From Sulfitobacter sp. (lineage in GTDB: Bacteria; Pseudomonadota; Alphaproteobacteria; Rhodobacterales; Rhodobacteraceae), in assembly GCA_017854855.1 (NCBI GenBank), contig JAFMGZ010000015.1, positions 1-64,000 on the forward strand: DNA of 64,000 nt, in the 5' to 3' direction. Each line of letters starts with the position of its first letter. The stretch's first letter is position 1. This document shows positions 49,871-64,000 of the stretch, piece by piece. The notes beneath the pieces were generated by a model. It made no database searches. It saw nothing but the letters and a program-made list of their open reading frames with translations, and had not been told where the DNA came from. The position numbers and the translations under genes were made by a program.

Positions 49871-50614
49871 TTAGCCAGCAGCCAACCATTCGGCCGCTGT
49901 GAACTGGGGCCGGAAATACGCGATCATGCGGCCTTCTGCGGGGCCATCCAAGGCGGCATCCCAGGGGGCCACACCGTGCAAAAGATGGCGGTGCAGCAAA
50001 ATAGATTGTCCCGGCCCTGCCTGCACCCGCAAAGGCGCGATTGTGTCATATACGGCTCTGCGCGCGGCCTGATAGGCCTCTGTCAGGTCAATGTCTTGTG
50101 GGTTGCGGCCTGCGATCTCTGCGCGAAAGGCATCGCCCATGACGGTATGACTGCCGGGCCAGACGACCAGGGGCGCGGCCTCTGCCATGTTCAATGGCAG
50201 GCCCAGAACGAATGCGTGTGGTTCGCGCAAGAACCTGCGCCTTTGGGGCCCCAGCGGCAACAATCCATCTACATGGGCCGCAAAACGTTTTATTCTGTAG
50301 CGGTGGTTGGCGTCGCTTTCGCCTGCGTCCTGTCCGGGGTAGCCGGGATAGACGACAGACAATTGCGCGCGGTGCCACCGGGGCGGAGCGGCAAGATGTG
50401 GCCCCCATGGCCCTTTGAGGGGCACATCGCCGATTGACCCATCCTCAGCATTTGGCAAGGCATCGACGCCCACGAACCATGTCTGCGCATGTCTGAGGTT
50501 GTGCGCGCGGGCGTCAGGATCGGCGGTTATGTCCAGGGCTGCCGCATATGCGGCCTGCGCCCAGCCCAGAACCGCGCTGTCGCTGTCAAAAACAACAAAG
50601 CCGTCTTTTACCAC
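49871..50614 (-). CDS. Phytanoyl-CoA dioxygenase-like Fe(II)/2-oxoglutarate oxygenase
   Basis: 247 residues from GTG 50614, overlapping the stop of the TauE/SafE gene by seven bases. The double-stranded beta-helix iron triad appears as His114-x-Asp116 (FAAHVDG) and His213 (LLHGVAPW), with Arg235 (YFRP) as the likely 2-oxoglutarate carboxylate ligand. Spacing between the HxD and the distal His is about 97 residues, normal for the PhyH group. The substrate is unknown; relatives hydroxylate lipids or small metabolites. It is cotranscribed with the permease. Confidence 0.68.
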   Translation of the reverse strand: MVKDGFVVFDSDSAVLGWAQAAYAAALDITADPDARAHNLRHAQTWFVGVDALPNAEDGSIGDVPLKGPWGPHLAAPPRWHRAQLSVVYPGYPGQDAGESDANHRYRIKRFAAHVDGLLPLGPQRRRFLREPHAFVLGLPLNMAEAAPLVVWPGSHTVMGDAFRAEIAGRNPQDIDLTEAYQAARRAVYDTIAPLRVQAGPGQSILLHRHLLHGVAPWDAALDGPAEGRMIAYFRPQFTAAEWLAAG

Positions 50615-51429
50615 CCAAGCGCCTTGCGCAGCATATTCACCGCCACCACGACAAGGAACACGGCAAACACCCGTTTCAGCGGTTTGGGATCCATCGCATG
50701 GGCCAGCTTGACCCCCCAGGGGGCGGTGATCAGCGTCATCGCGATGATGATGCCGAAAGCGACCAGATTGACCGTGCCGATGGTTAAGGGCGGCTTGCCC
50801 GTCTGCATATCGACAAAAACGAACCCGATGACGGCAGGCACGGCGATCAGCACCCCAAAGCCTGCGGCCGTGGCCACAGCGCGGTGAATGGGCGTGTTAT
50901 ACAGGCTCATCAGTGGCACGCCGAAACTGCCGCCGCCGATGCCCATCAGCACCGACATGAACCCCACCAGCGGCGACAGGATCGCCCGCATGATGCCCCG
51001 TGGCATGGCCTGCCCAAGCCGCCATTCCGCGCGGCCAAACCCCATGTAAAGCCCCACGATCAGGGCCAAAATGCCAAAGATGGCCTGCAATGTATTGGAC
51101 CGCAGCTGTGCCACGACCAACATCCCGACAACCGCACCAATCACGATACCGGGTGCCCAGCTGCGCAGGATGTCCCAATCTACCGCACCCTTTTTGTTGT
51201 GGCTCAGTACAGATCGGACAGAGGTCACGATAATCGTCGCCAATGAGGTGGCCAGACACATCTGCATCAATTGTGGCCCCTCGTATCCAAGGGTCTGGAA
51301 TGCATAGAAAAACGCAGGCACCAGCACGATGCCACCGCCGACACCTAAAAGGCCGGCAAGCACGCCTGCGACGGCACCAATGGCCATCAGCATAGCGCCC
51401 ATTTGTATCAAGATCATCGTATCGGGCAT
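50608..51429 (-). CDS. TauE/SafE family sulfite/organosulfonate exporter
   Basis: 273 residues with eight predicted helices in two repeated halves. Family motifs are GVLAGLLGVGGGIVLVPAFFY at about 20-40 and its counterpart GFMSVLMGIGGGSFGVPLMSLYN near 155-178. Members move sulfite, sulfoacetate, taurine-derived anions or other small anions across the cytoplasmic membrane. Nothing in the context fixes the substrate; DMSP or taurine sulfur metabolism would be natural in this group. It is the first gene of a two-gene unit with the dioxygenase. Confidence 0.9.
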   Translation of the reverse strand: MPDTMILIQMGAMLMAIGAVAGVLAGLLGVGGGIVLVPAFFYAFQTLGYEGPQLMQMCLATSLATIIVTSVRSVLSHNKKGAVDWDILRSWAPGIVIGAVVGMLVVAQLRSNTLQAIFGILALIVGLYMGFGRAEWRLGQAMPRGIMRAILSPLVGFMSVLMGIGGGSFGVPLMSLYNTPIHRAVATAAGFGVLIAVPAVIGFVFVDMQTGKPPLTIGTVNLVAFGIIIAMTLITAPWGVKLAHAMDPKPLKRVFAVFLVVVAVNMLRKALGW

Positions 51430-51455: not shown

Positions 51456-52466
51456 CTACACCGCTTCTTGCGCCTGGGCCAGTGCATTGACTTGGTCAAG
51501 TGCCTGTAAAACCAGCTCGGGGCCCGCATTTTCACGATGTGCGCCCTCTGACAGCATGCGCCGCCAGACCCGCGCGCCGGGCCGGCCGGCAAACAGGCCC
51601 AGCATATGGCGGGTGATCTGGTTCAGTTTTCCACCCGCGATCAGATGCGCCTCAATATAGGGCAGCATGCCCATTACGGCCTCTTGCGCCGTGGTGTCGT
51701 GGCCGCGGCCAAAGATGCGCCGATCTGCGGCGCACAGGATGTCTGCGGGCTGATGATAGGCGCTTCGCCCGATCATGACCCCGTCCAGTCCACCATCCAG
51801 AAACGCCTCTGCCTGATCCAATGAGGTGATCCCGCCATTGATGGAAATATGCAGGTTGGGAAAATATTCCTTCATCAAATGCACCAGTGGGTAGTCAAGC
51901 GGCGGAATATCGCGGTTCTCCTTGGGGCTCAGCCCTTGCAACCATGCTTTGCGCGCATGGATGGACACACGAATGCAGCCTGCGGCAACGATGCGCGACA
52001 GAAACTCTGGCAAGACCTCATGCGGTTCCTGATCATCCACCCCGATGCGGCATTTGACGGTCACATCCACATCAACCGCCGCGATCATTTCAGCCACGCA
52101 TTCAGCCACCAGCGCGGGCTGTTCCATCAAGACGGCACCGAAACATCCCGATTGCACGCGGTCAGACGGGCAGCCTACGTTCAGGTTAATCTCATCATAT
52201 CCTGCATCCGCCCCCAGTTTCGCAGCCAGGGCCAGCTCCTTTGGGTCTGATCCGCCTAACTGCAATGCGACCGGGTGTTCGGCCACATCATGGTCCAGCA
52301 AATGCACCGCCCCCCCGCGCACCAGCGCAGGCGCTGTCACCATTTCCGTATAAAGCAAGGTCTCACAACTGAGCAGCCGGTGCAGATAGCGACAATGGCG
52401 GTCGGTCCAGTCCATCATGGGTGCGACGGATAATCTCGCTGCGGCGGCGGCTGCGGTGTTGGGCAT
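51456..52466 (-). CDS. dusA: tRNA-dihydrouridine(20/20a) synthase DusA
   Basis: 336 residues. FMN enzyme reducing U20/U20a in the tRNA D-loop. N-terminal SVAPMMDWTDRHCRYLHRLLS, catalytic Cys99 in NLNVGCPSDRVQSGCFGAVLM, FMN-phosphate region INGGITSLDQAEAFLDGGLDGVMIGRSAY and the DusA-specific C-terminus ITRHMLGLFAGRPGARVWRRMLSE. It is 26 bases upstream of the TauE gene on the same strand and may be its own transcript. It marks the end of the core region before the accessory island. Confidence 0.95.
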   Translation of the reverse strand: MPNTAAAAAARLSVAPMMDWTDRHCRYLHRLLSCETLLYTEMVTAPALVRGGAVHLLDHDVAEHPVALQLGGSDPKELALAAKLGADAGYDEINLNVGCPSDRVQSGCFGAVLMEQPALVAECVAEMIAAVDVDVTVKCRIGVDDQEPHEVLPEFLSRIVAAGCIRVSIHARKAWLQGLSPKENRDIPPLDYPLVHLMKEYFPNLHISINGGITSLDQAEAFLDGGLDGVMIGRSAYHQPADILCAADRRIFGRGHDTTAQEAVMGMLPYIEAHLIAGGKLNQITRHMLGLFAGRPGARVWRRMLSEGAHRENAGPELVLQALDQVNALAQAQEAV

Positions 52467-52840: not shown

Positions 52841-54895
52841 TTATAGATTTGCTTCACCAGCATTTCGCAACGATCGCACCTCAATGCGTGCGTGATAGCT
52901 GCTTTGACCAACCGAAAACGCGAAGGCATCAAGGGCTGCCAAGGGCAAGACTGATGTGGCGTCTGTCAGCGTATTCAGACCTGGCCAGCCGTCTCGGATC
53001 CAGACGGTTCCCTTTGGAATGCGCGGGGTCACTTTTGCCCTTGCGTTGAATGACCCGCGTGCATTCGAAAGTTCGATGGGGTCCGCATCCAAGATGCCCC
53101 TGTACGCGGCGTCTTGTGGGGCAATCCAAAGATCCGCTTGATCCTCGCGGGCGGCCAATGTTGGCAGCGCCTGCGCGTGATCATAAAATGAGTGGAAATG
53201 CCCGAATGTTCGGCCATGCGCCAATATGAGACCGTCTTTTGTGCCCCCAAAATCAACCGGCATCGGCAGCGCGGGAATGCCCATATCGGCAGCCCGGCTA
53301 GACGAAAATTCGATCTTTCCTGTGGGTGTCGCAAAATCATATGTCGGATAGGCGACATGCGATACCTTCAACGCCACCCTGCCCCCGTTTGCACGCAATG
53401 CCTCCACCGATGTGTGACCCGTCGCAGGATGATCAAGCGCGGCGTCCATTGCCTCGGCCTGATCCGCCCACGGATAGACGTCGTCAACAGCCAGGCGTTT
53501 GGCCAGGCCTTTGTAAAGATCATATACAGGCCGCGCGTCACCAGCCGCAGGCAAGGCCTGATCGGTCAGGTGGATATATGTGTTGGTCGATTTCGCACCG
53601 ATTTCTTCCAGCCAGATTGTTCCCGGCAGCACGATGTCCGCAGCCTCGCGTATGTATTGATTGGCAAAAATATCATAGGCGACCACCAATTCCGCCTTCT
53701 CAAGGGCGGCACGCATCCGATTGGTATCTGGGAAGGATGATGACACATTCGATCCAAGTGAAACGAATACTTTGACCGTACCGGTTTCCAGTGCCGTCAG
53801 GATCGCTTCCATCTGGTTTGGGATGTAGTGTCCGGGTTTGCGCCGATCCGCAGCAGATAGATCGACAAACCCGGCACCATGGCTGCGGCCACCATGACGC
53901 GGGCCCATACCGCCACCAGGCCGTCCGTAGTCGCCTGTCAATGCGGGCAAACAGGTGATTGCGCGTGCTGCTTGCCATGTGTTGTCGCCTTTGTGCAGTG
54001 ACGAACCGCCCATCACGATCATTGCGGGCCGCGTCGCGGCATAGGCGCGGGCCAAAGCCACAACCCGGCTTGCTGGAACACCGGTCAGGGTTTCTGCCCA
54101 ATCTGGCGTCATTGCCGCGACATGGGCCTTCAAGGCTGCGAAACCGGTTGTGTGGGCGTCAACAAAAGATGCGCTCCAACTTTGATCAGCGATGATCACG
54201 TGCATCATCGCGAGGGCCAAGGCGGCATCAGAGCCCGGTTTGACGATGATGACATCATCAGCCAGCGCCGAAGCCTCAGTCCGGCGCACATCAATCACCA
54301 CAATGCGCGCGCCGCGCCGCTTGGCCATTTCGACGTGACGCAGGGTATTGGCCTGACTGACAGTGTTTGCCCCCCAGAGGATTACCATCTGGGAATTCTC
54401 ACCCAAGTCCTCTTTGGTTGAGGTCTCAATCGCACCGGTGATGCCGGCACCAAATCCCCCCAGCCCCCAGCAAATCATCGCGGGGTTCCAGTACTGACAT
54501 CCATAAAGGTTGGCGAAACGGTCCATTTGCGCGCGTTTCAAACCAAAGGCATAATCGTTGGCCCAATTGCCGTGGCCTTGCCAGAGTCCAACGGCTTCGC
54601 GACCGACGGACTGCATCTTGTTGGCTATTTGATCAAGCGCGGCGTCCCAACTGGTTTCAGACCACTGATCGGACCCGCGCCTCGAGCGCACCAGCGGCTT
54701 TAGCAAACGGCGATCATTACCAAGAATTTCATGGGCTGCCCTACCGCGCATACACAAGAAACCCTGACTGTCGGGGTTCGTAACATCACCCGCTATCGAC
54801 GCCAATTGTCCATCCTGGACGGTGACGGTCATCCCGCAAAGCGTGGGATGGCAATTCATCGGACACATCGACTGAAAGCTGCGGGTCTTTGCCAT
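52841..54895 (-). CDS. Molybdopterin (bis-MGD) oxidoreductase with N-terminal 4Fe-4S site
   Basis: 684 residues from ATG 54895 (GAGGA upstream); 22 further open codons are dropped. The cluster ligands are Cys11, Cys15, Cys20 and Cys48 (CPMNCHPTLC ... GFLCMRG), the FdhF/NarB-like Fe4S4 pattern with unusual spacing C-x3-C-x4-C. Then come YWNPAMICWGLGGFG, VILWGANTVSQANTLRHVEMAKRRGARIVVIDVRRTEA and a C-terminal molybdopterin-binding domain (about 560-680). There is no twin-arginine leader, so it is cytoplasmic. The electron partner is not encoded nearby. The substrate is unknown; as the last gene of the importer operon it probably oxidises or reduces the imported compound. Confidence 0.85.
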   Translation of the reverse strand: MAKTRSFQSMCPMNCHPTLCGMTVTVQDGQLASIAGDVTNPDSQGFLCMRGRAAHEILGNDRRLLKPLVRSRRGSDQWSETSWDAALDQIANKMQSVGREAVGLWQGHGNWANDYAFGLKRAQMDRFANLYGCQYWNPAMICWGLGGFGAGITGAIETSTKEDLGENSQMVILWGANTVSQANTLRHVEMAKRRGARIVVIDVRRTEASALADDVIIVKPGSDAALALAMMHVIIADQSWSASFVDAHTTGFAALKAHVAAMTPDWAETLTGVPASRVVALARAYAATRPAMIVMGGSSLHKGDNTWQAARAITCLPALTGDYGRPGGGMGPRHGGRSHGAGFVDLSAADRRKPGHYIPNQMEAILTALETGTVKVFVSLGSNVSSSFPDTNRMRAALEKAELVVAYDIFANQYIREAADIVLPGTIWLEEIGAKSTNTYIHLTDQALPAAGDARPVYDLYKGLAKRLAVDDVYPWADQAEAMDAALDHPATGHTSVEALRANGGRVALKVSHVAYPTYDFATPTGKIEFSSSRAADMGIPALPMPVDFGGTKDGLILAHGRTFGHFHSFYDHAQALPTLAAREDQADLWIAPQDAAYRGILDADPIELSNARGSFNARAKVTPRIPKGTVWIRDGWPGLNTLTDATSVLPLAALDAFAFSVGQSSYHARIEVRSLRNAGEANL

Positions 54896-54920
54896 TGTGT
54901 TCCTCGCAGATGCGGATTGG

Positions 54921-55805
54921 TCAAGTGATGAGGTCTGGTATCTCATCACGGCAGTAATCAAAGATCGCCCCGCTGCGGGTCAGCCAAATGTCATCACGGT
55001 GGCTTGCAATGTGATCTAATGCGCGGCGCAGATGGCGCAAACGGTAGGGCTGGCCAACAAGGTAGGGATGCAAGGCAATCCCCATGACCAGTGGTTGTTC
55101 GGCGGATTGGTCCAGCATTTCGTCAAAATTATCAATGATCATGTTGGCAAAATCCGCAGCGCCGTCCTTGCGCGCGACGATAGAGGGAATATCGTTTACC
55201 TCTTGCGGATACGGGATCGCCAAGAGCCGCCCGGCAGAGGTTTGCATCCAGACCGGCTGATCATCCATGCACCAGTTCAGCGTATATCCATAGCCCGCTT
55301 CGGCCAAAAGATCAGGGGTTTGCAGGCTTTCGGCGATCCAGGGCGACAACCACCCCTTTGGCGCGACGCGCTCGGCCTGCGTCAGGATGCGCGTCGCCTC
55401 GGCAATCAGTTCCGCCTCTTGCCTTCGGTCAAGAACGCTTTGGCGTTCGGAATTTGTCCGGCCATGCCCGACAATTTCATCACCACGGTCACGAAATGCT
55501 GACATGAGTTCAGGCGCATAACCATACATCGCACTGTTGGCGATCACACTGACCGGCATGTCCAAGGCGTCAAACATGTCACGCATCCGCCAGGCACCAA
55601 CACGGTTGCCGTAGTCACGCCAGGCGTAATTCAAAATGTCGGGCTGCGGGCCGCCGGGGGCCAGTTCCGCACCCAGGCCCTCACCAAATGCGAAATGTTC
55701 AAGGTTAAGCCCGATATAGACCGCAAGGCGTTTGCCACCGGGCCATGTGTAATCTGCACGCTGGGTTATGGGCCTATAGGCATATCGCCCGTGATCGTTC
55801 AGCAC
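54921..55805 (-). CDS. Polysaccharide-deacetylase-fold hydrolase, PuuE (allantoinase)-like
   Basis: 294 residues from GTG 55805 (GGAG eight bases upstream). The start YTWPGGKRLAVYIGLNLEHFAFGEG, the DYGNRVGAWRMRDMFDALDMPVSVIANSAMYGYAPELM segment and the end LVMGIALHPYLVGQPYRLRHLRRALDHIASHRDDIWLTR follow the PuuE/NodB-like pattern. The classical Asp plus HxxxH metal site of chitin deacetylases is degenerate (GHGRTNSER), as in PuuE-type enzymes that attack cyclic ureides rather than sugars. A C-N hydrolase role is therefore favoured. It follows the NTF2-like gene by 3 bases. Confidence 0.75.
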   Translation of the reverse strand: MLNDHGRYAYRPITQRADYTWPGGKRLAVYIGLNLEHFAFGEGLGAELAPGGPQPDILNYAWRDYGNRVGAWRMRDMFDALDMPVSVIANSAMYGYAPELMSAFRDRGDEIVGHGRTNSERQSVLDRRQEAELIAEATRILTQAERVAPKGWLSPWIAESLQTPDLLAEAGYGYTLNWCMDDQPVWMQTSAGRLLAIPYPQEVNDIPSIVARKDGAADFANMIIDNFDEMLDQSAEQPLVMGIALHPYLVGQPYRLRHLRRALDHIASHRDDIWLTRSGAIFDYCRDEIPDLIT

Positions 55806-55808
55806 GGC

Positions 55809-56234
55809 CTAAAGCTCCGCTTCCGCAAGTCCCGCTTTGTGCAGGATGATCTCGGCGCTGTCATTCCAAACATCTGTTCCGATAATTTTTCCGTCCCGGA
55901 CCACAAATTTGTCCATGTAACGGTTGGTTTCGAAAGTGGTGCCGTCTTTCCACTCACCATAGAGGTAGCCCGTGTTGTAAACATGCACGTCACCTGTTTC
56001 CGCATCCAAAGCCGCGTCCGTGCGCAGAAACCGTTTCTTGACCCATGCATAGCGTTTCGCATTGAACGCCGACGCATCCGACGGTCGTGAAAAGCGGCGA
56101 CCGCCTGTAAACACAAGCTGGAAATCATCTCCAACATAGGCAGCGGCACCTTCCGGGTCTGGCACCATGGAACGTTCAAGGTATGCTTCAACGATGGCTT
56201 TTGCGGCAACAACTGGGTCGGTCATACGGTCCAT
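55809..56234 (-). CDS. NTF2/SnoaL-like small protein
   Basis: 141 residues from ATG 56234 (GAGGA five bases upstream). Cone-shaped NTF2-fold pattern: an N-terminal helix (VVAAKAIVEAYLERSM), AAYVGDDFQLVFTGGRRF, then strands GDVHVYNTGYLYGEWKDGTTFETNRYMDKFVVRDGKIIGTDVWNDSAEIIL. Such proteins act as small hydrolases, isomerases or binding partners. Within this operon it probably serves a step of the same pathway. It is separated from the binding-protein gene by a strong 12-bp hairpin. Confidence 0.78.
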   Translation of the reverse strand: MDRMTDPVVAAKAIVEAYLERSMVPDPEGAAAYVGDDFQLVFTGGRRFSRPSDASAFNAKRYAWVKKRFLRTDAALDAETGDVHVYNTGYLYGEWKDGTTFETNRYMDKFVVRDGKIIGTDVWNDSAEIILHKAGLAEAEL

Positions 56235-56267
56235 GCAATCCTCGTGCTAATCTTGTTGAATGACGAA

Positions 56268-56297
56268 CATGCGCCTTGGCGTGAACCAAGGCGCATG
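56268..56297 (-). promoter_or_regulatory. 12-bp intercistronic hairpin after the ABC binding-protein gene
   Basis: CATGCGCCTTGG and CCAAGGCGCATG form a perfect stem around TTCACG (minus-strand sense), 17 bases after the binding-protein stop. No T-run follows. Such hairpins commonly protect the upstream mRNA so that binding protein is made in excess over downstream enzymes. Confidence 0.6.
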
Positions 56298-56314
56298 CCG
56301 ACTTATAGCTTTGT

Positions 56315-57340
56315 TTAGTTGATCTTTACCTCGAAAGTCCGTTCTTCCAAGGGCGGCAAGAATGACCGGTCAAAGATATCCGACGCTTCTGGCAACACTT
56401 CAAGTCCGTAGCCTTCCGCAATGATGGCGATAGACCGCGTCAGCCGGTCGTCGACCAGATCACCGATACCGGTTTCAGAGGTCTCGGGCGCATTCATCAG
56501 CTTGGTCAGAGCAAATTCGAGGCGGGCGCGCTCAAGCTCTGGATCGACAAGGTTGTCAAAAGCCATGATTGCTTTGACTGCGATATCCTGATCCTTGGTA
56601 ATTTCCATCGTAGCCCGCGTCACAGCACGTACCAGACCGGCGACAGCCTCGGGGTTTTCTGAGAGCAGTGCACGCGACACCATCATCCCGTTTGAGTACA
56701 AATCCATGCCATAGTCTTCATATTGCAACCAATCGAAATCGGCCTCGGGATCCTTGCGATTGGCGATCAGATTAAACCAGCTGCTGACCGTAAACGTAAA
56801 CGCACCGTCAATGTCGCCACGGATCAGCATCGGCTCTTGCAGGTTTGGCGCAAGGCTTTCGTATTTGATCGTATCCGGGTCGATCCCGTTCAGGCGTGCA
56901 AACACCGGGAAAAGACGGGTGGTTGGTGTGCCTTGCGCCCCACCAAGGGTCTTGCCTTCGAGGTCTTTGGGCGTCTTGATTCCCAGCTCCTTTGGGACAG
57001 CAATCGCAAATGGCGGACGGTTCCACATTTGAAATACCATCACTGGCGCTTCGCCGGGGCGTGCGGATGCGTTTTGAATAATCGCGTTGATGTCGCCAAA
57101 ACCAGCGTCGTATGCACCGCTCATGATGCGGGTGATGGTTGCTGCCGATCCTTCGCCCTGGTCGATGGTCACGTTCAGACCTTCTTCTTCAAAATAGCCC
57201 TCGTTTAGCGCCACCAAGAAGGGCGCATCGCTGCCTTGGGTTTTCCAGCCAAGCGTGAACTTGATGTCGGTTGTTTGTGCCATGGCCGGGCTGATGCCCG
57301 CCAATACCGCAAATGCGGCGCCGAAAAGAGTATGTTTCAT
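56315..57340 (-). CDS. NMT1/SsuA-type ABC transporter substrate-binding protein
   Basis: 341 residues from ATG 57340 (AAGGA at optimal distance; ATG 57346 is too close to it). A signal peptide runs to Ala21 (ISPAMA-Q). The mature start TDIKFTLGWKTQGSDAPFLVALNEGYFEEEGLNVTIDQGEGSAATITRIMSGAYDAGFGDI is typical of the NMT1/THI5/SsuA group that binds pyrimidine thiamine precursors, sulfonates, nitrate, riboflavin or other N-heterocycles. The ligand is not determinable. With the adjoining permease and ATPase it forms a complete importer. Confidence 0.88.
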   Translation of the reverse strand: MKHTLFGAAFAVLAGISPAMAQTTDIKFTLGWKTQGSDAPFLVALNEGYFEEEGLNVTIDQGEGSAATITRIMSGAYDAGFGDINAIIQNASARPGEAPVMVFQMWNRPPFAIAVPKELGIKTPKDLEGKTLGGAQGTPTTRLFPVFARLNGIDPDTIKYESLAPNLQEPMLIRGDIDGAFTFTVSSWFNLIANRKDPEADFDWLQYEDYGMDLYSNGMMVSRALLSENPEAVAGLVRAVTRATMEITKDQDIAVKAIMAFDNLVDPELERARLEFALTKLMNAPETSETGIGDLVDDRLTRSIAIIAEGYGLEVLPEASDIFDRSFLPPLEERTFEVKIN

Positions 57341-57375
57341 ATCCATGTTCCTTGGGTTGAGAGAGCAGAGATTGT

Positions 57376-58149
57376 TCAGGTAATTGCGATATCAGTGTCG
57401 CGTGTGGCCCAGCCGGTCACGCGCCGTTCCAAAAAGGAGAAGAAAGAGTAGAGGACGACGCCCAGCACCGCGAGAATGATGAGCCCCGCAAAGACAAGTG
57501 AGACTTGAAAATTGGAAGATGCTGTCATCATCACGTTTCCAATACCGCGATTGGACGCCACGGTTTCGGACAAGACCGCGCCAACGAAGGACAGCGTGAT
57601 CGCGACTTTCAGGGATGCAAAGAAGTACGGCATCGTGCGCGGCAGACCGACATTCCAAAGGATTTCACTCTTGGACGCCCCCAGCGTCTTAAGAACGTCT
57701 TCGAGGTCTGGCTCCGTGGTCGCAAGCCCTGTGGCAATGTTCACGACGATGGGGAATACACAGATCACCATCGCCGTCAGGATGGCAGGTGTCGTGCCAG
57801 AGCCGAACCAAAGCACGAAGATCGGCACAACCGCGACCTTGGGAATAGATGAAAACCCGACCAGCAACGGATAGGCCACGGCATAGGCGACACGCGACGT
57901 ACCGACCAACACGCCCAAGGTCACCCCAATTCCAACCCCCAGTACAAATCCAATGAGGGTGGAATAAAGCGTCTGTAAAATATGTGGCCACAAGATCGGA
58001 AACTTGACCCAAAGCGTGGCAATGATTTCCGTCGGGCGCGGCAAAACGAGGTCAGATACATTCAACACAATGCACAAGACTTCCCACATCAGAAAAAATC
58101 CGAAGATCAACGAAAATGACATGAACTTGATGCGTCTGGCTTCGGTCAT
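57376..58149 (-). CDS. SsuC/TauC-type ABC transporter permease
   Basis: 257 residues with six helices. The EAA loop is visible as KTLGASKSEILWNVGLPRTMPYFFASLKVAI (about 173-203), contacting the ATPase. N-terminal WEVLCIVLNVSDLVLPRPTEIIATLWVKFPILWPHILQTLYSTLIGFVLGVGIG is the usual start of this family. It lies between ATPase and binding-protein genes, 10 bases after the former. Confidence 0.92.
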   Translation of the reverse strand: MTEARRIKFMSFSLIFGFFLMWEVLCIVLNVSDLVLPRPTEIIATLWVKFPILWPHILQTLYSTLIGFVLGVGIGVTLGVLVGTSRVAYAVAYPLLVGFSSIPKVAVVPIFVLWFGSGTTPAILTAMVICVFPIVVNIATGLATTEPDLEDVLKTLGASKSEILWNVGLPRTMPYFFASLKVAITLSFVGAVLSETVASNRGIGNVMMTASSNFQVSLVFAGLIILAVLGVVLYSFFSFLERRVTGWATRDTDIAIT

Positions 58150-58159
58150 GAAAACGGTC

Positions 58160-59011
58160 CTATTTGCGGACTTGCGCGATAAGCTCGCGAAGACCTTGGG
58201 TCATTTCAACGAATTCGGGGCTGTAAATCATACCAATGTCGCGCGGCTGGGGGATATTCACCGCCTCATCAGATATGATACGTCCGGGGCGCGCGCTCAT
58301 TACGCAGATCCGCTTGGCAAGGAAGCCCGCTTCGCGCAGGTCATGGGTCACCAAAAGAACGGTCGGCTTGCGATCAAGATAGAGATCCTGCAAGATTTGC
58401 CACAGCTCTTCGCGGGTAAACTGATCCAGCGCACCAAATGGTTCATCCAAAAGCAACAAGTCGGGCTCGTGGATCAGCGCGCGGCACAGGTTTGAGCGTT
58501 GCAGCATCCCGCCTGACAATTGCCACGGAAAATGGTTTGCAAAACCAGCCAGCCCCACTTGGGCCAATAGCGCATGCACCCGGTCACGAAACGCACCCTT
58601 ACGATCTTGGCGAAAGCTATGCTTGAACGGCGGTACAATCTTTAGCGGCATCATGACGTTCTGCTCAATCGTCAACCACGGCAGCATCGTGGGGTTCTGA
58701 AACGCCATCCCGATCCGCAAAGCCTTGACCTTTGCTTCGCGTCCGCCAACAAGGACGACACCTGAAGACGGGGCGATCAAATTACTGACCAACCTGAGAA
58801 TCGTAGACTTGCCACAGCCAGACGGGCCTACAAGCGCAACAAAGTCGCCAGCATCCAGCCTAAGCGTCGTCGGCGAAAGCGCGGTAACGGCCTTCTCGCC
58901 GCTGCCGAACACAACAGATGCAGCTTGCAGGTCAACTGCTGAGCGCCGCGGCAAGGTGGTCGGTTTTCTGACAGCGTCAGGTTCCGCGATGATGTTATTT
59001 TTCATGTCCAT
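58160..59011 (-). CDS. SsuB/TauB-type ABC transporter ATP-binding protein
   Basis: 283 residues from ATG 59011; ATG 59005 is equally possible, and a TTG at 59050 is unlikely. Walker A GPSGCGKST at 62-70, Q-loop FQNPTMLPWLT, signature LSGGMLQRSNLCRAL (M and L in place of the usual Q and R of LSGGQRQR), Walker B LLLLDEPFGALD, H-loop VTHDLREA. It is the first importer gene, behind a low-GC region with a plausible promoter. Confidence 0.93.
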   Translation of the reverse strand: MDMKNNIIAEPDAVRKPTTLPRRSAVDLQAASVVFGSGEKAVTALSPTTLRLDAGDFVALVGPSGCGKSTILRLVSNLIAPSSGVVLVGGREAKVKALRIGMAFQNPTMLPWLTIEQNVMMPLKIVPPFKHSFRQDRKGAFRDRVHALLAQVGLAGFANHFPWQLSGGMLQRSNLCRALIHEPDLLLLDEPFGALDQFTREELWQILQDLYLDRKPTVLLVTHDLREAGFLAKRICVMSARPGRIISDEAVNIPQPRDIGMIYSPEFVEMTQGLRELIAQVRK

Positions 59012-59054
59012 GATGTGACTAGAGATCAAAGCATCTGCGGCAGAAAGCAATCTA

Positions 59055-59090
59055 AGTAAAAATTTGTAGAATTAATTTGTCACGCACAAA
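59055..59090 (-). promoter_or_regulatory. Candidate promoter and operator of the importer operon
   Basis: On the minus strand GTGACA (complement of 59078-59083) and TTTACT (complement of 59055-59060) are spaced by 17 bases in AT-rich DNA. TTTGT-CACGC-ACAAA (59076-59090) is a small dyad overlapping the -35 box. The site lies between the TetR gene and the ATPase gene and may be where that regulator acts. Confidence 0.4.
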
Positions 59091-59144
59091 AATGTTGCGC
59101 GTTGCAGCGCCATGCGCAAAAAAAAGCGGCTGTTGAAAATTTGA

Positions 59145-59807
59145 TTAGCGGTCTTTCATACCCAAAAGACTTGAAATTGTGTCCACGGCATGAACGCGGC
59201 GCTCCGCTTGCCACTCAGGATTATTCAGGTCCTGACCAACAACAAGCCCGAGCGTCGCGGCATTGTTCAAATGGTGCGCCGACAGGGCCACGATGCTGAG
59301 GTAAAGCTGCACAGGGTCGGGTTTGCGCGTAAAGGCACCACATTCAAAACCACGATCAAGCAGCTTGCCAAGCGCCACGATCAATGGCTGGGACATGTCG
59401 CGGATCGCCTCCGACTGCTTGATGTATTTTCCGTTCAAAAGGTTCTCGTTGCGGGTCAGTTTCCGAAACTGACCATTGGTCATGAAATAGTCATAGGTGA
59501 AGGTGACCAACTCATTCATCTTTTCCGCAGGATCACCTTCATCAAACTTCAAATCCGCTTCTTGTTTGCGAATGTCTTCGAAAACCCGATCTAGAACAGC
59601 AACGTAAAGCCCCTCTTTACTGCCGAAATAGTGATAAATCATGCGCGAATTGCAATTCGCTGCCTGCGTGATCCGCCCGATGCGCGCTCCATGAAAGCCG
59701 TGTTCTGCAAATTCGCCGATGGCAACAAGCAGGATCTCGGCCTGGGTCCGCACCGGATCACGACTTCTGAAATTCGATGACTTCGTTTCGTCATCTATTT
59801 TCGCCAT
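59145..59807 (-). CDS. TetR/AcrR family transcriptional regulator
   Basis: 220 residues. The N-terminal helix-turn-helix spans about 20-65 (QAEILLVAIGEFAEHGFHGARIGRITQAANCNSRMIYHYFGSKEGLY), with the canonical YHYFGSKEGLY recognition end. The C-terminal ligand domain has the TetR_C-like pattern found in RutR-type regulators (FRKLTRNENLLNGKYI..., then LYLSIVALSAHHLNNAATLGLV). RutR responds to uracil; the similarity is only suggestive. It lies between the HpxW-like gene and the importer operon, on the same strand, so it is probably the island's local regulator. Confidence 0.92.
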   Translation of the reverse strand: MAKIDDETKSSNFRSRDPVRTQAEILLVAIGEFAEHGFHGARIGRITQAANCNSRMIYHYFGSKEGLYVAVLDRVFEDIRKQEADLKFDEGDPAEKMNELVTFTYDYFMTNGQFRKLTRNENLLNGKYIKQSEAIRDMSQPLIVALGKLLDRGFECGAFTRKPDPVQLYLSIVALSAHHLNNAATLGLVVGQDLNNPEWQAERRVHAVDTISSLLGMKDR

Positions 59808-59938
59808 GACATTCTCCGTCTGCTGTCTTTATCGCAAGTGCTCACGACACTAGCCGGTAAATACCGAAGTGGCCATGTTTTGGGTGCCCCCCAGAAACAG
59901 AGACGCGCGCATGGGGCATATGAAAATTCTGACTGGCC

Positions 59939-61561
59939 TCAAAAGCTTAGCGCAGCGCCGTCAGCACGTGGATCGGTTGCGGTTTCGACTAAGCCATTGG
60001 GATGCAAAACCACCGCACCAGCATGGCCCACAAGGCTACTGAATTCCGGCAAAAATTCAACTTCATGCCCTGCGTCTATCAGTTCCTGCACAAGCCCAGT
60101 GTCAAACCGATTTTCCAGTTTCAACGACGTGGTGTCAGCGCCCCAAGTCTTTCCCAACAGCCAGCGTGGGGCTGTGATTGCAGCTTGTAGGTCCGTCCCG
60201 AATTGTGCGTATCTTGTGAAAATAGCCGACTGCGTTTGCGGCTGACCTTCCCCGCCCATCGTTCCGTAAGCCATAACGCGCCCGTCCTCCAGAATGGCCA
60301 TCGCGGGGTTCAGTGTATGGAACGGTCTGCGACCGGGGCCGACCTGATTGGGTCCCGGTGTCAACGAAAACCCGGCCCCTCTGTTCTGGAAAAACACACC
60401 CGTTTCAGGGCAAGTCAATCCAGACCCGAATTCCCAAAAAACGCTTTGGATAAAGCTGACGACAGTGCCTTCGCTATCTGATGCGCCCATCCAAATGGTG
60501 TCACCCAATGCTGGCTCGTAGGGCCATTGCAGGGCTCTTTTACCGTTGATACGGGCCGCCATTGCGTCCAATTGGCTGGCCTCAAGCCAATCTTGTGCAG
60601 GCACCGCCATATGATCAGGATCGCCCAATTCCGCATTGCGACGGATGAATGCCTGTTTGGTTGCTTCAACAAGTCCGTGCACATGATCGAAACCCTCGCC
60701 ACTGGTCACGCCAAGTCGATCGAACAGGCCCAGTATCGCAAGGGATGCAACACCCTGAGTTGGTGCTATCATATTGAACAGCTGACCATATGACGTCGTC
60801 AGTGTCAGCGGTGTAACAATCTGCGCATCATAGTTGGCAAAATCAGACGCACGCAGCGGGCTTGCCTGCGCTTCAAGATATGCGGCATGCGTATCAGCCA
60901 AAGCGCCTTCATAAAAACTACGCAGCCCATTTTCTGCAAGCATCTCCAGTGTCTTACCGAGATTTTTCTGGACGAGTCTTTGGCCCGCGCAAGGCACTGC
61001 CCCGTCAATCAGATATGTCTCAGCGAACCCGGGCACGTCACGCAAAGTATCAAGTTTTTCGGCCGTGCAATCCGCTTGGTTCCCTGTAACCGCGATACCA
61101 CCCTTTGCATGTCCGATAGCATCCTCAAGCAAACGGGCCAAAGGCATCCGCCGTTCTTGCGGCACCAATGATAAAGCTTTGTGCCAACCGCTGATTGTTC
61201 CCGGAACAGTAAGGGCCGCCAGACCACCTCTTGTCGGAATACTGTCGCTATAGCCTTTGTCCGTATAGAACTCCGGCGTCGCGAGCGCCGCCGCTGTGCC
61301 GCATCCAGAGATGCCAATCGGTGCTTCACCGCGCCGTTTGATGATCCAGAACCCGTCGCCACCGATCCCGTTCATATGCGGATAGACCACCGCAATGGTC
61401 GCAGCGGCTGCAACCATCGCCTCTATCGCGGTGCCACCCGCAGCAAGGATATCGCGCCCCGCAAGAGATGCTGCGCGGTGCGGGGCGGTCATACCGCCGT
61501 TCAGGCCAAGAGAAGATTTCAGCACGTCATATTCCGATTTTCTGGTTAGCGATTTCGTCAC
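59939..61561 (-). CDS. Gamma-glutamyltransferase-family amidohydrolase, HpxW (oxamate amidohydrolase)-like
   Basis: 540 residues from GTG 61561, chosen because SLTRKSEYDVLKSSLGLNGGMTAPHRAAS is the usual family start. ATG 61492 would begin exactly at MTAPH, and an upstream TTG is unlikely. Large-subunit part: IEAMVAAAATIAVVYPHMNGIGGDGFWII. The expected autocleavage/nucleophile Thr is Thr355 in GDTIWMGASDSEGTVVSFIQSVFWEFGSG, aligned seven residues before the conserved Asp. The lack of a signal peptide separates it from periplasmic GGT and fits HpxW, which hydrolyses oxamate to oxalate and ammonia in oxalurate breakdown. It is divergent from the HpxZ-like gene. Confidence 0.8.
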   Translation of the reverse strand: MTKSLTRKSEYDVLKSSLGLNGGMTAPHRAASLAGRDILAAGGTAIEAMVAAAATIAVVYPHMNGIGGDGFWIIKRRGEAPIGISGCGTAAALATPEFYTDKGYSDSIPTRGGLAALTVPGTISGWHKALSLVPQERRMPLARLLEDAIGHAKGGIAVTGNQADCTAEKLDTLRDVPGFAETYLIDGAVPCAGQRLVQKNLGKTLEMLAENGLRSFYEGALADTHAAYLEAQASPLRASDFANYDAQIVTPLTLTTSYGQLFNMIAPTQGVASLAILGLFDRLGVTSGEGFDHVHGLVEATKQAFIRRNAELGDPDHMAVPAQDWLEASQLDAMAARINGKRALQWPYEPALGDTIWMGASDSEGTVVSFIQSVFWEFGSGLTCPETGVFFQNRGAGFSLTPGPNQVGPGRRPFHTLNPAMAILEDGRVMAYGTMGGEGQPQTQSAIFTRYAQFGTDLQAAITAPRWLLGKTWGADTTSLKLENRFDTGLVQELIDAGHEVEFLPEFSSLVGHAGAVVLHPNGLVETATDPRADGAALSF

Positions 61562-61599
61562 GACAGGTTGCAGTCGTCGCACAGATGCAAATGCCCGCC

Positions 61600-61609
61600 T
61601 ATACGTATA
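61600..61609. promoter_or_regulatory. 10-bp palindrome in the HpxW/HpxZ divergent region
   Basis: TATACGTATA is perfectly self-complementary and lies 39 bases upstream of the HpxW-like start and 108 bases upstream of the HpxZ-like start. It may be an operator half or a -10 element; the signal is short. Confidence 0.3.
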
Positions 61610-61716
61610 TCCATGGCCTGCGTAGGAAATGCCACCAACATATCCTCGCAATGCCCATCATTTACGCACGCAGAACCATATCGCCCGAAAATACATCGAA
61701 CAAGGGGCACCACAGG

Positions 61717-62187
61717 ATGCAAACTCTGGAGAAATTGAAAAGTGCATACGAAACTCCGGGCGGTTTCGCACAGGTTGCTCAAATCGCACTTAACAAGAGT
61801 TTTCCCCGAATGGACATCAATATACCAACAATTGTTGCCGAGGTTACGGAGGCGTTCAATCGTTATGAACAAGCGCTTGTCAGCAATGACGTCACGACCC
61901 TCGACAGATTGTTTTGGACCAGTGAACATGTCATTCGCTACGGTCAAACCGAGAACCTTCACGGCCATGAAGAGATATTGGCTTTTCGCCGGTCGCGGCC
62001 TTCTCAAGGACTAAAGCGTGGCTTGCGCAAGACTGTCATCACCACATTCGGCCATGACTTTGCGACCGCCAATACAGAATTCACAAAGCCTGCCCAACAC
62101 CGGGTTGGACGCCAAAGCCATAGTTGGGCGCGCCTTGAAGATGGATGGCGCATCGTTGCTGCGCATGTCTCATGGATGGACGAATAG
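61717..62187 (+). CDS. HpxZ/AtzH-like NTF2-fold protein (DUF3225)
   Basis: 156 residues from ATG 61717 (AAGGGG upstream) or 125 residues from ATG 61810, where the conserved domain begins (MDINIPTIVAEVTEAFNRYEQALVSND). The domain continues TLDRLFWTSEHVIRYGQTENLHGHEEILAFRRSRP, TVITTFGHDFATANTEF and SHSWARLEDGWRIVAAHVSWMDE, which is the HpxZ/AtzH pattern of oxalurate and cyanuric-acid gene clusters. It is probably an accessory or small hydrolytic partner of the neighbouring amidase. The 31-residue N-terminal extension is unusual. It is followed 62 bases later by the amidase gene. Confidence 0.82.
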   Translation: MQTLEKLKSAYETPGGFAQVAQIALNKSFPRMDINIPTIVAEVTEAFNRYEQALVSNDVTTLDRLFWTSEHVIRYGQTENLHGHEEILAFRRSRPSQGLKRGLRKTVITTFGHDFATANTEFTKPAQHRVGRQSHSWARLEDGWRIVAAHVSWMDE

Positions 62188-62249
62188 GGACAAAACCGCC
62201 GCTGCTAGATCGTCAGCGACGGCTGGAACCCAGTAGGATGGAAATTGCG

Positions 62250-63419
62250 ATGGATGATACGGTCAATGCATTTACGGACATTTTCACGCTGCAAGGACAG
62301 GCAACTGGCCCGCTTCACGGGCTGTCTTTTGCGGTCAAGGATATCTTTGACGTGGCGGGACATGTGGCAGGTTGCGGCAATCCCGAATGGGGACGAAGCC
62401 ATTCAGCCGCCAAACAACATGCCCCTGCAATAACCACGCTTCTTGACGCGGGCGGCCGGTTTGTCGGAAAGACCCATACCGATGAACTGGCCTACAGCCT
62501 CATGGGGGTGAATGCGCATTACGGGATCCCTGTGAATACTGCCGATCCGCGCCGCATTCCGGGCGGCTCTTCGTCAGGATCTGCCGCAGCGGTCGCGGCG
62601 GGCCTCGTCGATTTTGGACTGGGCAGCGATACCGGTGGATCAGTACGCTTGCCCGCTTCATTCTGCGGAATATGGGGTATCCGAACAACCTTTGGCCAAA
62701 TCACCCTCGATGGCGCGATGCCGTTTACCCACTCATTTGACACGGTTGGATGGTTTGCAAGGTCGGCCACGATAATGGACAGGGTCGCCCGGTCATTTGA
62801 CTGTCCACAAGGCCCCTCCCCCACGCGGCTATTGCTGCCCGTGGATATTTGGGCACGGGCCGGTGCGGATGCAATTGCAGCAGTGGCACCCAGGCTGGCC
62901 CAACTCGAAGCCTTGATGGGCCCCGCCACACCGATCTTGCTCTCGCAGGATGGCTTGGAAAACTGGCGCGAAACCTTTCGGATTTGTCAGGCGTTCGAAA
63001 TATGGGATGTCCACAAGGACTGGGTTACGTCAAACACGCCAGATTTTGGCCCAGGCATCCGTGAACGCTTTGAAATTGCCTCGCAGATTGATCGCGAAAC
63101 ATTCCAAGTCGCTGATGCGCACAAGGCAGTTATTCAATCGCACATTCGCGAAACCATCACCCCCAACAGTATTCTCGTGCTGCCAACCAGCCCTGCACCC
63201 GCACCTTTTACAACGACGCCTGAGAGCGCTCTGAATGACTTTCGCATGCGCGCCTTCGAGGTGCTTTGCCCCGCCGGCTTGAGCGGATTACCACAGTTAT
63301 CCATGCCAGCAGGTTTTGTTGACAAAGGCCCTGTTGGACTAAGCATCATTGGGGCCAAAGATCAGGATCGACAGCTTATCTCAATCGGAGTGGCGCTAGA
63401 GGAAATGTCAAAAGCGTGA
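62250..63419 (+). CDS. Amidase signature family enzyme (AMI1/GatA-like)
   Basis: 389 residues from ATG 62250 (AGGATGGA upstream; ATG 62238 is an alternative). The Ser-cisSer-Lys triad is Lys30 (SFAVKDIFDVAG), the cis-Ser in GGSSSGSA at 105-112 and nucleophile Ser131 in GSDTGGSVRLPA. It is short for the family and resembles AMI1-type amidases. The AtzG/HpxX small subunit that accompanies AtzE/HpxY amidases is not encoded nearby. It would hydrolyse a primary or substituted amide to acid and ammonia, fitting the C-N bond-breaking theme of the island. The exact substrate is unknown. Confidence 0.88.
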   Translation: MDDTVNAFTDIFTLQGQATGPLHGLSFAVKDIFDVAGHVAGCGNPEWGRSHSAAKQHAPAITTLLDAGGRFVGKTHTDELAYSLMGVNAHYGIPVNTADPRRIPGGSSSGSAAAVAAGLVDFGLGSDTGGSVRLPASFCGIWGIRTTFGQITLDGAMPFTHSFDTVGWFARSATIMDRVARSFDCPQGPSPTRLLLPVDIWARAGADAIAAVAPRLAQLEALMGPATPILLSQDGLENWRETFRICQAFEIWDVHKDWVTSNTPDFGPGIRERFEIASQIDRETFQVADAHKAVIQSHIRETITPNSILVLPTSPAPAPFTTTPESALNDFRMRAFEVLCPAGLSGLPQLSMPAGFVDKGPVGLSIIGAKDQDRQLISIGVALEEMSKA

Positions 63420-63639
63420 AGGCGCAGCGGCAAGCTGGCTCATGAATTTCACTCTGAGCAAGTCGAAGACCAGCACGTCATAATGCGCAAGGTGGCCGCC
63501 GCCAATGGTCCCAACGCGCCCGGCCCTACTGAGGCCACGGCCCCCCCCTTTAACTTTGGCCAGAATGTTCAAAACACGGCCCCGCAATCGACAGCCAGAT
63601 CACCGCATTGGCAGCAGCGCGGGTGTTGTGCATCGTCTC
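63420..63639. other. 220-base stretch of degenerate-looking sequence at the island edge
   Basis: No intact gene. On the minus strand, downstream of copC, fragments such as AAANAVIWLSIAGP and VGTIGGGHLAHYDVLVFDLLRVKF read like protein in different frames, interrupted by stops and by a run of eight C at about 63541-63548. This may be the decayed remains of a gene that once followed copC, or of a mobile element. I could not identify it. Confidence 0.4.
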
Positions 63640-63999
63640 TTACTTCGAGATTTCAAAGCTGAATGCCCCTTGCATCGGGTGACCATCTGCCGCCAGCCCC
63701 CGCCATTGGACGGTGTACTGCCCTGTCGGCAGCTCGGGCGGTGTGGCACTGAATTCACTGACGGGCTGCATATTGTCGGTACGCGTCAAATCATGTGCCG
63801 TGCCATCCTGATCAGTGAGAGAGATCAGCGTGACACGCATCGGCATATCAAACCGCAGCGCGATTGCAGAAGGCGATATTTCTAGAACTGCACCATCCGC
63901 TGGCTGAGTTGCCTCTTTCTTGGCGTGCGCCTCCGCGCTTGGCGTGCCGAGTAACAGTGAAATGGCAAGGATCGCCGCAGACATGAGAGTTGGTTTCAT
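63640..63999 (-). CDS. CopC-domain copper-binding periplasmic protein
   Basis: 119 residues with a signal peptide (…GTPSAEA-HAKKE). The mature N-terminal His starts the CopC pattern (HAxxxxxxPADGAVLEISPSAIALRFDMPMRVTLISLTD), and the C-terminus has GQYTVQWRGLAADGHPMQGAFSFEI, where the GHPMxG His completes the Cu(II) site. CopC-like proteins carry copper in the periplasm, usually with CopD. Here no copD follows; only degenerate sequence lies downstream, so any partner is lost or elsewhere. The start lies one base from the window edge. Confidence 0.85.
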   Translation of the reverse strand: MKPTLMSAAILAISLLLGTPSAEAHAKKEATQPADGAVLEISPSAIALRFDMPMRVTLISLTDQDGTAHDLTRTDNMQPVSEFSATPPELPTGQYTVQWRGLAADGHPMQGAFSFEISK

Positions 64000-64000
64000 C

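Follow-up and report, generated by a model that had tools for sequence, protein, structure and literature searches.

A ten-gene accessory block beside dusA in Sulfitobacter: a recurrent importer and PuuE-like operon with a candidate role in nitrogen scavenging

What do ten adjacent genes that combine an importer, a molybdoenzyme and several hydrolases accomplish, and do they belong together at all? The question is raised by the genome of a Sulfitobacter sp. (Rhodobacteraceae; GenBank assembly GCA_017854855.1), where these genes occupy positions 52841 to 63419 of the window, that is, the whole analyzed stretch of 64,000 nucleotides (positions 1 to 64,000 of contig JAFMGZ010000015.1). An initial annotation, made from the sequence alone, treated them as an accessory catabolic island with a single theme, the uptake and breakdown of a cyclic ureide or N-heterocycle. 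All ten open reading frames (ORFs) are present there, bordered by dusA (51456-52466, minus strand) on one side and a copC-like gene (63640-63999, minus strand) on the other. We find that six of these genes form an operon that recurs in related bacteria, and that scavenging of nitrogen from an N-heterocycle or ureide is, as a general reading, the probable role of the island.

Eight genes are encoded on the minus strand, in the order gamma-glutamyltransferase family hydrolase (GGT), TetR regulator, ATPase, permease, periplasmic binding protein (SBP), NTF2-like protein, PuuE-like ring amidohydrolase (PUUE) and molybdoenzyme (MO), whereas an HpxZ-like gene followed by an amidase gene lies on the plus strand, divergent from the rest. 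Domain families were assigned by Pfam and NCBIfam scans. The importer is a complete NMT1/THI5-type ATP-binding cassette (ABC) system that consists of the SBP (56315..57346; PF09084, 106.2 bits, cut-off 20.5; AlphaFold2 (AF2) model pLDDT 32.5), the permease (57376..58149; BPD_transp_1, PF00528) and the ATPase (58160..59050; ABC_tran, PF00005). The regulator (59145..59807; TetR_N and TetR_C_29) matches the RutR model far under its cut-off (42 of 368 bits). The NTF2-like gene (55809..56234; 141 amino acids; weak DUF4440 match, below the gathering score) stands directly before PUUE (54921..55805; 294 amino acids). By ORF coordinates, the gaps are short, 29 bp between permease and SBP and 3 bp between NTF2-like gene and PUUE. 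Several ORFs exceed the likely genes: MO probably starts at 54895 (ATG), about 25 bp past PUUE, the HpxZ-like gene at 61807, although its ORF runs upstream to 61468, and the amidase at about 62238. A scan for promoters and terminators yielded no signal exceeding shuffled sequences.

The TetR, ATPase, permease, SBP, NTF2-like and PUUE genes, hereafter the core, are conserved as neighbors. SBPs at least 64% identical are encoded in 13 of 390 genomes of the order (own genome, G000, included) and in two additional genomes, G020 and G083, and because the core is found together in 12 of these 15 (own included; all at SBP identity of about 76% or more; neighborhood genes called by codon usage), the neighboring of island genes exceeds chance. 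TetR precedes the ATPase in 11 of the 12 and follows the MO gene in Roseibacterium (G234); the permease is 84-94% identical in the other intact core operons. G083 has ATPase, permease, SBP and NTF2-like genes only, and G286 and G330 carry a variant resembling that of Agrobacterium, in which GGT-SBP-permease-ATPase is accompanied by GntR, a different NTF2-like protein and an amidohydrolase; the loci of this sister system are L058, L223 and L224, on an Agrobacterium plasmid and in two genomes of the family. The metagenome-assembled genome (MAG) Rhodobacterales 34-62-10 (L121) supplies a thirteenth core locus, in which TetR is split between frames. The NTF2-like gene is paired with PUUE in relatives, and its product has many invariant charged and aromatic residues (alignment A5, 13 sequences).

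Larger portions of the island also recur. A single run in Roseibacterium sp. SDUM158017 (L171/L095) comprises seven island genes (identities: ATPase 82, permease 88, SBP 85, NTF2-like 87, PUUE 84, MO 71, TetR 57%), with no amidase match obtained for this strain, and in G219, the six core genes are joined by HpxZ-like (65%) and amidase (63%) genes placed tail to tail with PUUE, eight island genes altogether. Smaller combinations adjoin tripartite ATP-independent periplasmic (TRAP) transporters: PUUE (60%) with GGT (59%) in G112, and PUUE (65%) with amidase (62%) and HpxZ-like (74%) genes in G125. Co-occurrence of most of the genes elsewhere, as the initial annotation supposed, is supported by the core operons and by these seven- and eight-gene loci. 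The combination is also as uncommon as suggested, with all ten genes together in no other locus examined and no paper describing it found in an open-access literature search.

The likely substrate class is indicated by the company that homologs keep. Relatives of PUUE, the importer and GGT adjoin genes for hydantoinase, carbamoylase, hydantoin-type racemase, hyuAB, AtzD and AllB, as well as cytosine deaminase and 8-oxoguanine deaminase. In Skermanella, the genes next to a related importer (SBP 52-55%) include AtzD (549.6 bits, cut-off 360) as well as AllB (375.5 bits, cut-off 357.85). For PUUE relatives in particular, the adjoining genes encode hydantoinase (584.7 bits, cut-off 393), carbamoylase, racemase and hyuAB, with ring-opening amidohydrolase, ureidoglycolate lyase, xanthine dehydrogenase (XDH) and amidases also nearby, and the importers beside them are of at least five kinds; in Alicycliphilus, an XDH-type Mo enzyme occurs with PUUE and an amidase. 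PUUE relatives lacking such neighbors were encountered in Sphingomonas and at G034-type loci such as L034. The hydantoinase-, AtzD- and AllB-type contexts sustain the proposed theme and the substrate class of cyclic ureides or N-heterocycles. The idea of ten genes acting as one fixed unit was not supported, given that MO is a widespread enzyme with mixed neighbors and GGT can be found on other contigs.

At L060, L098, L099 and L101, an NMT1 importer (SBP about 50-55%) accompanies a ring-opening amidohydrolase; most of these loci add AllB-like, SDR or formamidase genes, and the AtzD model is satisfied in L060. Loci of this type possibly represent a barbiturate- or cyanurate-like route.

PUUE belongs to the polysaccharide-deacetylase fold family and has PuuE structures among its best PDB matches; it scores 124.6 bits against TIGR03212, far below the cut-off of 424.6, as do its orthologs (L171, 127.3 bits; L124, 125.9 bits). 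A true PuuE-UraD fusion of 514 amino acids (514.7 bits against the same cut-off) is encoded elsewhere in the own genome, and we accordingly rejected the identification of PUUE as true PuuE. Relatives of 47-83% identity are present in 18 other of 198 genomes of the family, and PUUE-type relatives carry the annotation 'polysaccharide deacetylase'. On a published plasmid with a PUUE relative, the gene is called a putative polysaccharide deacetylase, with separate entries for the racemase, for a cyanuric acid hydrolase and for a polyamine transporter (PMC6015842). The own-genome loci of the fusion and of a second PuuE-like paralog (35%) are L003 (G000:C36:26367-27194) and L002/L052 (G000:C23:4947-5795); the fusion gene is followed by a cupin-like gene, and the paralog is near spermidine/putrescine-type ABC genes.

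Between SBP and the NTF2-like gene, six genomes and the MAG, hence 7 of 13 core loci, encode a TRZ/ATZ/8-oxoguanine-deaminase-type protein that meets no NCBIfam cut-off, and a 44% relative of it lies nearby in G219, outside the operon. Genome-wide searches at 1e-60 detected this aminohydrolase in G074, G219, G222, G248, G260, G464 and G488, and did not find it in G000, G020, G234, G310 and G491. Conversely, among the core genomes, MO (52841..54961, minus strand; 706-amino-acid ORF) is present in G000, G020, G234 and G491 and in none of the other eight in genome-wide searches, its absence from G074, G222, G248, G260, G464 and G488 being taken from the 390-genome search, treated as the same sample as that for SBP. 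MO is therefore found in 4 of 5 core genomes without the aminohydrolase versus 0 of 7 with it (Fisher p=0.010; 12 core genomes, with the partial G083 excluded and MAG L121 taken as a variant), and G464 and G491, members of the same genus, differ exactly in this respect, the former carrying the aminohydrolase and the latter MO. Across the order, MO occurs in 3 of 13 genomes with SBP versus 4 of 377 without (Fisher p=9e-4; 2 of 12, p=0.012, without the own genome). In this small sample, the distributions of the two enzymes seem to be partially complementary.

MO itself is a bis-molybdopterin guanine dinucleotide (bis-MGD) enzyme with Molybdopterin, Molydop_binding and Fe4S4 domains above the Pfam gathering scores. 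Its N-terminus contains a 4Fe-4S motif, CPMNCHPTLCGM, and the Cys in NPAMICWGLG is a putative Mo ligand. The AF2 model of MO (pLDDT 88.9) resembles formate dehydrogenase, nitrate reductase and acetylene hydratase in fold to a similar degree, and no NCBIfam cut-off was reached among the 25 matches listed of 27. In FdhH, His141, which follows the Mo-ligand Cys/Sec, and the second-sphere Arg333 are what we take to be the formate dehydrogenase active-site pair. The corresponding residues of MO, in the pairs Cys142-Trp143 and Arg333-His334, are invariant in 45 of 45 sequences of alignment A4 (the window and 44 of 80 loci), with a residue register taken from a profile alignment, partly by eye; the His/Arg pair is absent, and formate dehydrogenase was rejected as a family assignment. 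Orthologs of 66-75% identity are encoded in 6 other of the 390 order genomes, and a plasmid search with MO at 1e-60 gave no match. The MO gene is part of the same run in Roseibacterium and divergent in the MAG; in Jannaschia seohaensis (L124), it adjoins PUUE as well as a TRAP transporter. At L111 and L177, there are two adjacent MO matches per locus (two copies or two halves).

The remaining three genes resemble parts of the hpx system. GGT (59939..61651; G_glu_transpept), an HpxW-like Ntn hydrolase, has as its best PDB match 5hft, presumably Klebsiella HpxW, aligned along most of its length; the small chain begins at the aligned Thr385, before which autocleavage is predicted, so that GGT has the N-terminal Thr small chain of HpxW-type enzymes. 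It is 51.6% identical to an hpxW-annotated Paraburkholderia gene, which is followed there by an oxalate/formate antiporter gene. The HpxZ/AtzH-like NTF2-fold protein (61807..62187, plus strand; 126 amino acids; NF033625 191 bits, cut-off 135) retains seven of nine AtzH pocket residues (Y22, R46, R63, R66, R73, F94 and Q106), with R96 changed to Lys and Q108 to His in an alignment counted by hand; the Tyr22-Arg46 pair of AtzH is reported in PMC6219798. The amidase (62145..63419, plus strand) is of the PRK08310 type (481 bits, cut-off 391) and falls under the AtzE/HpxY cut-offs (PRK09201, 218.8 of 461; TIGR02715, 211.2 of 425.75). No relevant Pfam match to HpxX/AtzG was obtained among 9 small ORFs, from 26 ORFs of at least 45 amino acids at 61640-63640, the rest of the genome not having been searched. 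Judged by these similarities, the HpxW- and HpxZ-like assignments of the initial annotation hold, and the amidase is not HpxY/AtzE. A canonical hpxWXYZ set was rejected, with HpxX not found and the amidase of another family. The amidase-HpxZ pair is itself recurrent, since it is also present in G125, G219, Roseomonas and Azospirillum.

From these observations, we infer an uptake-and-degradation scheme, including its substrate class, regulation, reactions and their order, that we propose tentatively and that could nearly as well be right as wrong. The substrate would be an N-heterocycle that is, or becomes, a cyclic ureide or imide, imported by the TetR-controlled NMT1-type system. MO would then hydroxylate or hydrate a ring carbon adjacent to nitrogen so that it gains a carbonyl oxygen, which is the least certain step; in sister operons, the TRZ/ATZ-type aminohydrolase would reach an equivalent result by substitution of -NH2, and an XDH-type Mo hydroxylase would do so in clusters of more distant kinship. 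PUUE, with its NTF2-like partner, would open the ring, after which nitrogen would be released as ammonia by the amidase together with the AtzH/HpxZ-like protein and the HpxW-like hydrolase. A small carboxylic acid would be left, which would be oxalate if the final reaction is that of HpxW. The chemistry of aminohydrolases, Mo enzymes and XDH-type enzymes could in each case place a carbonyl on a ring carbon beside nitrogen. Given this family chemistry and the distribution described above, carbonyl placement would be the simplest function to ascribe jointly to these enzymes, which apparently substitute for one another ahead of the PuuE-like opener.

Several observations weigh against this proposal, in particular against the part assigned to MO. 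Of the 80 named MO loci (the best 80 of 144 relatives; 11 of them shorter than 8 kb), only 3 contain other island genes, and the neighbors are mostly others, including TRAP transporters, lactate permease and glutathione S-transferase. In a Pfam tally of 83 of 95 MO neighbors, no family appears more than three times; the tally leaves out seven short genes and the five island genes of Roseibacterium, so that island genes are not counted in it. Because the neighbors are so mixed, MO may not be ureide-specific. In 10 of the 12 core genomes, MO is missing from the fetched core locus (18-20 kb), and G020 and G491 carry it on a different contig. G310 has neither MO nor the aminohydrolase, and in G222 (L219), the core is decayed, with TetR and ATPase in two frames each and 41 permease residues matching, while the SBP, aminohydrolase, NTF2-like and PUUE frames are still open. 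The complementarity weakens without the own genome (3/4 vs 0/7, p=0.024), when MAG L121, which has both enzymes, is counted (4/5 vs 1/8, p=0.032), with both changes (3/4 vs 1/8, p=0.067), and when G219, with its 44% relative outside the operon, is scored as lacking the aminohydrolase (4/6 vs 0/6, p=0.061); furthermore, all these p-values ignore kinship, and the genomes share ancestry. No oxalyl-CoA decarboxylase above cut-off was detected in the own genome, so that any oxalate would be a dead end or exported.

In an alternative explanation, the genes are independent neighbors, such that importer, NTF2-like protein and PUUE degrade an N-heterocycle, MO is a hitch-hiker with an unrelated role (a small organic acid might be its substrate), and GGT, HpxZ-like protein and amidase form a separate oxalurate or amide route. 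The mixed surroundings of MO, its separation from the core, and the fact that window-type GGT and the core operon are on different contigs in G074, G248 and G464 all fit this alternative, but the enrichment of MO in genomes with SBP, its inclusion in the Roseibacterium run, its partial complementarity with the aminohydrolase, and the HpxZ-amidase genes that adjoin the core in G219 and PUUE in G125 do not, and we regard independence as rather unlikely. The most specific version of the scheme, in which a stand-alone bis-MGD enzyme of a subfamily unnamed by the curated models used installs the ring carbonyl, replacing a TRZ/ATZ-type deaminase in an otherwise conserved importer-NTF2-PuuE-like operon, is doubtful; if true, ring oxygenation in nitrogen scavenging would fall to the dimethyl sulfoxide (DMSO) reductase family rather than to the xanthine oxidase family. 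A narrower form that overlaps our preferred explanation is a route akin to the atz pathways, in which the ring degraded is six-membered and resembles s-triazine or barbiturate; it agrees with the AtzH-like protein of the island, the TRZ/ATZ-type aminohydrolase of sister operons and AtzD beside a related NMT1 importer, but none of the ten proteins matches AtzD or AtzF above cut-off, AtzG was not found and the aminohydrolase fits no NCBIfam model at its cut-off; we consider this form improbable. A canonical purine/oxalurate (hpx) route, with PUUE opening an allantoin-type ureide and HpxW/HpxZ/amidase splitting oxalurate, is the least probable: the HpxZ score, the closeness of GGT to HpxW and the largely conserved AtzH pocket speak for it, but against it are the low PUUE score beside a true PuuE-UraD fusion in the same genome, the lack of a detected HpxX, the non-AtzE/HpxY amidase and the absence of any ureidoglycolate enzyme among the ten genes in Pfam/NCBIfam scans.

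The characterization of the block as an accessory island is borne out by its deviant composition (GC 0.550 versus 0.586-0.610 in 85 same-size windows from the rest of the 64 kb) and by its surroundings. The dusA gene is present in 39 of 40 genomes of the genus, own included; in 8 of 8 genus mates fetched, the gene order to its left is as in the window, with small local gains and losses, whereas the far side differs from the window in all eight, some mates being partly alike there. No island or copper-block genes were found at dusA in these eight mates beyond ABC-ATPase-level similarity (23-30%), and neither MO (1e-100) nor SBP (1e-120) was detected in any of the 16 further genomes of the genus that the order sample contains. 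The ten-gene block is accessory and occupies a variable site beside dusA. An integrative element targeted to dusA was rejected: no integrase-like product is encoded among the ten genes, and of four short repeat families in a 20-kb stretch, none pairs the dusA end with the far end of the island. The right flank appears to be a copper-resistance block (G000:C42:63640-70283; the window stops at 64000) with, by eye from translations, copC-like, two small periplasmic-type, and CusA- and CusB-like efflux genes. On the other side, a TauE/SafE-like gene (window 50608-51429, named by eye) adjoins dusA; it is kept in genus mates and is therefore probably unrelated to the island. On several plasmids, annotations place a TauE/SafE exporter gene at the position of an HpxW-like GGT gene or next to it (L191, Azospirillum matches H93-H99).

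The core represents a recurrent operon type in Rhodobacteraceae whose key enzyme is annotated in relatives as a polysaccharide deacetylase, and the island hints at a portion of organic nitrogen recycling that is still uncharted. The contrast between operons with the Mo enzyme and those with the deaminase makes the role of the MO subfamily testable, and the case calls for caution where similarity is the sole ground for giving proteins of this sort the names PuuE, HpxY or polysaccharide deacetylase.

Comparison with known systems places the island next to several of them without equating it with any. PUUE shares with PuuE allantoinase (3cl6/3cl7/3cl8) a common fold family by sequence and common positions that include a Glu (NYE/NLE), YG-R-G, HG, DD, ND and LH, but the stretch past the conserved HG reads HGYRW in PuuE versus HGRTN in PUUE, and PUUE has no UraD fusion. 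With the bis-MGD formate dehydrogenases and acetylene hydratase, MO shares only about 20-25% identity, the His and Arg of the formate dehydrogenases are replaced in it by the invariant Trp143 and His334, and the window island encodes no partner subunit. The hpxWXYZ genes are the oxalurate cluster of Klebsiella; as in that cluster, an HpxW-like GGT, an HpxZ/AtzH-like protein and a GatA-type amidase are encoded close together in the island, which differs in that no HpxX/AtzG was found, the amidase is of the PRK08310 type and the HpxZ-amidase pair is divergent from GGT, and which adds the importer, PUUE and MO. A ggt-atzG-atzE-atzH arrangement is described in PMC6219798, as is the cyanuric acid operon atzDGEHF of Pseudomonas sp. 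ADP, with which the island has in common an AtzH-like protein with Tyr22/Arg46 and a GatA-type amidase, differing by the lack of detected AtzD, AtzG and AtzF, by another ring opener and by the NMT1 importer. An Azospirillum plasmid cluster (L059, L189), GGT-branched-chain amino acid ABC-XDH-SRPBCC-amidase-HpxZ-MarR-DUF1116, unites GGT, an importer, a Mo enzyme, amidase and HpxZ as the island does, although its Mo enzyme belongs to the xanthine dehydrogenase family, its importer is of the branched-chain type and the stretch contains no PuuE-like gene.

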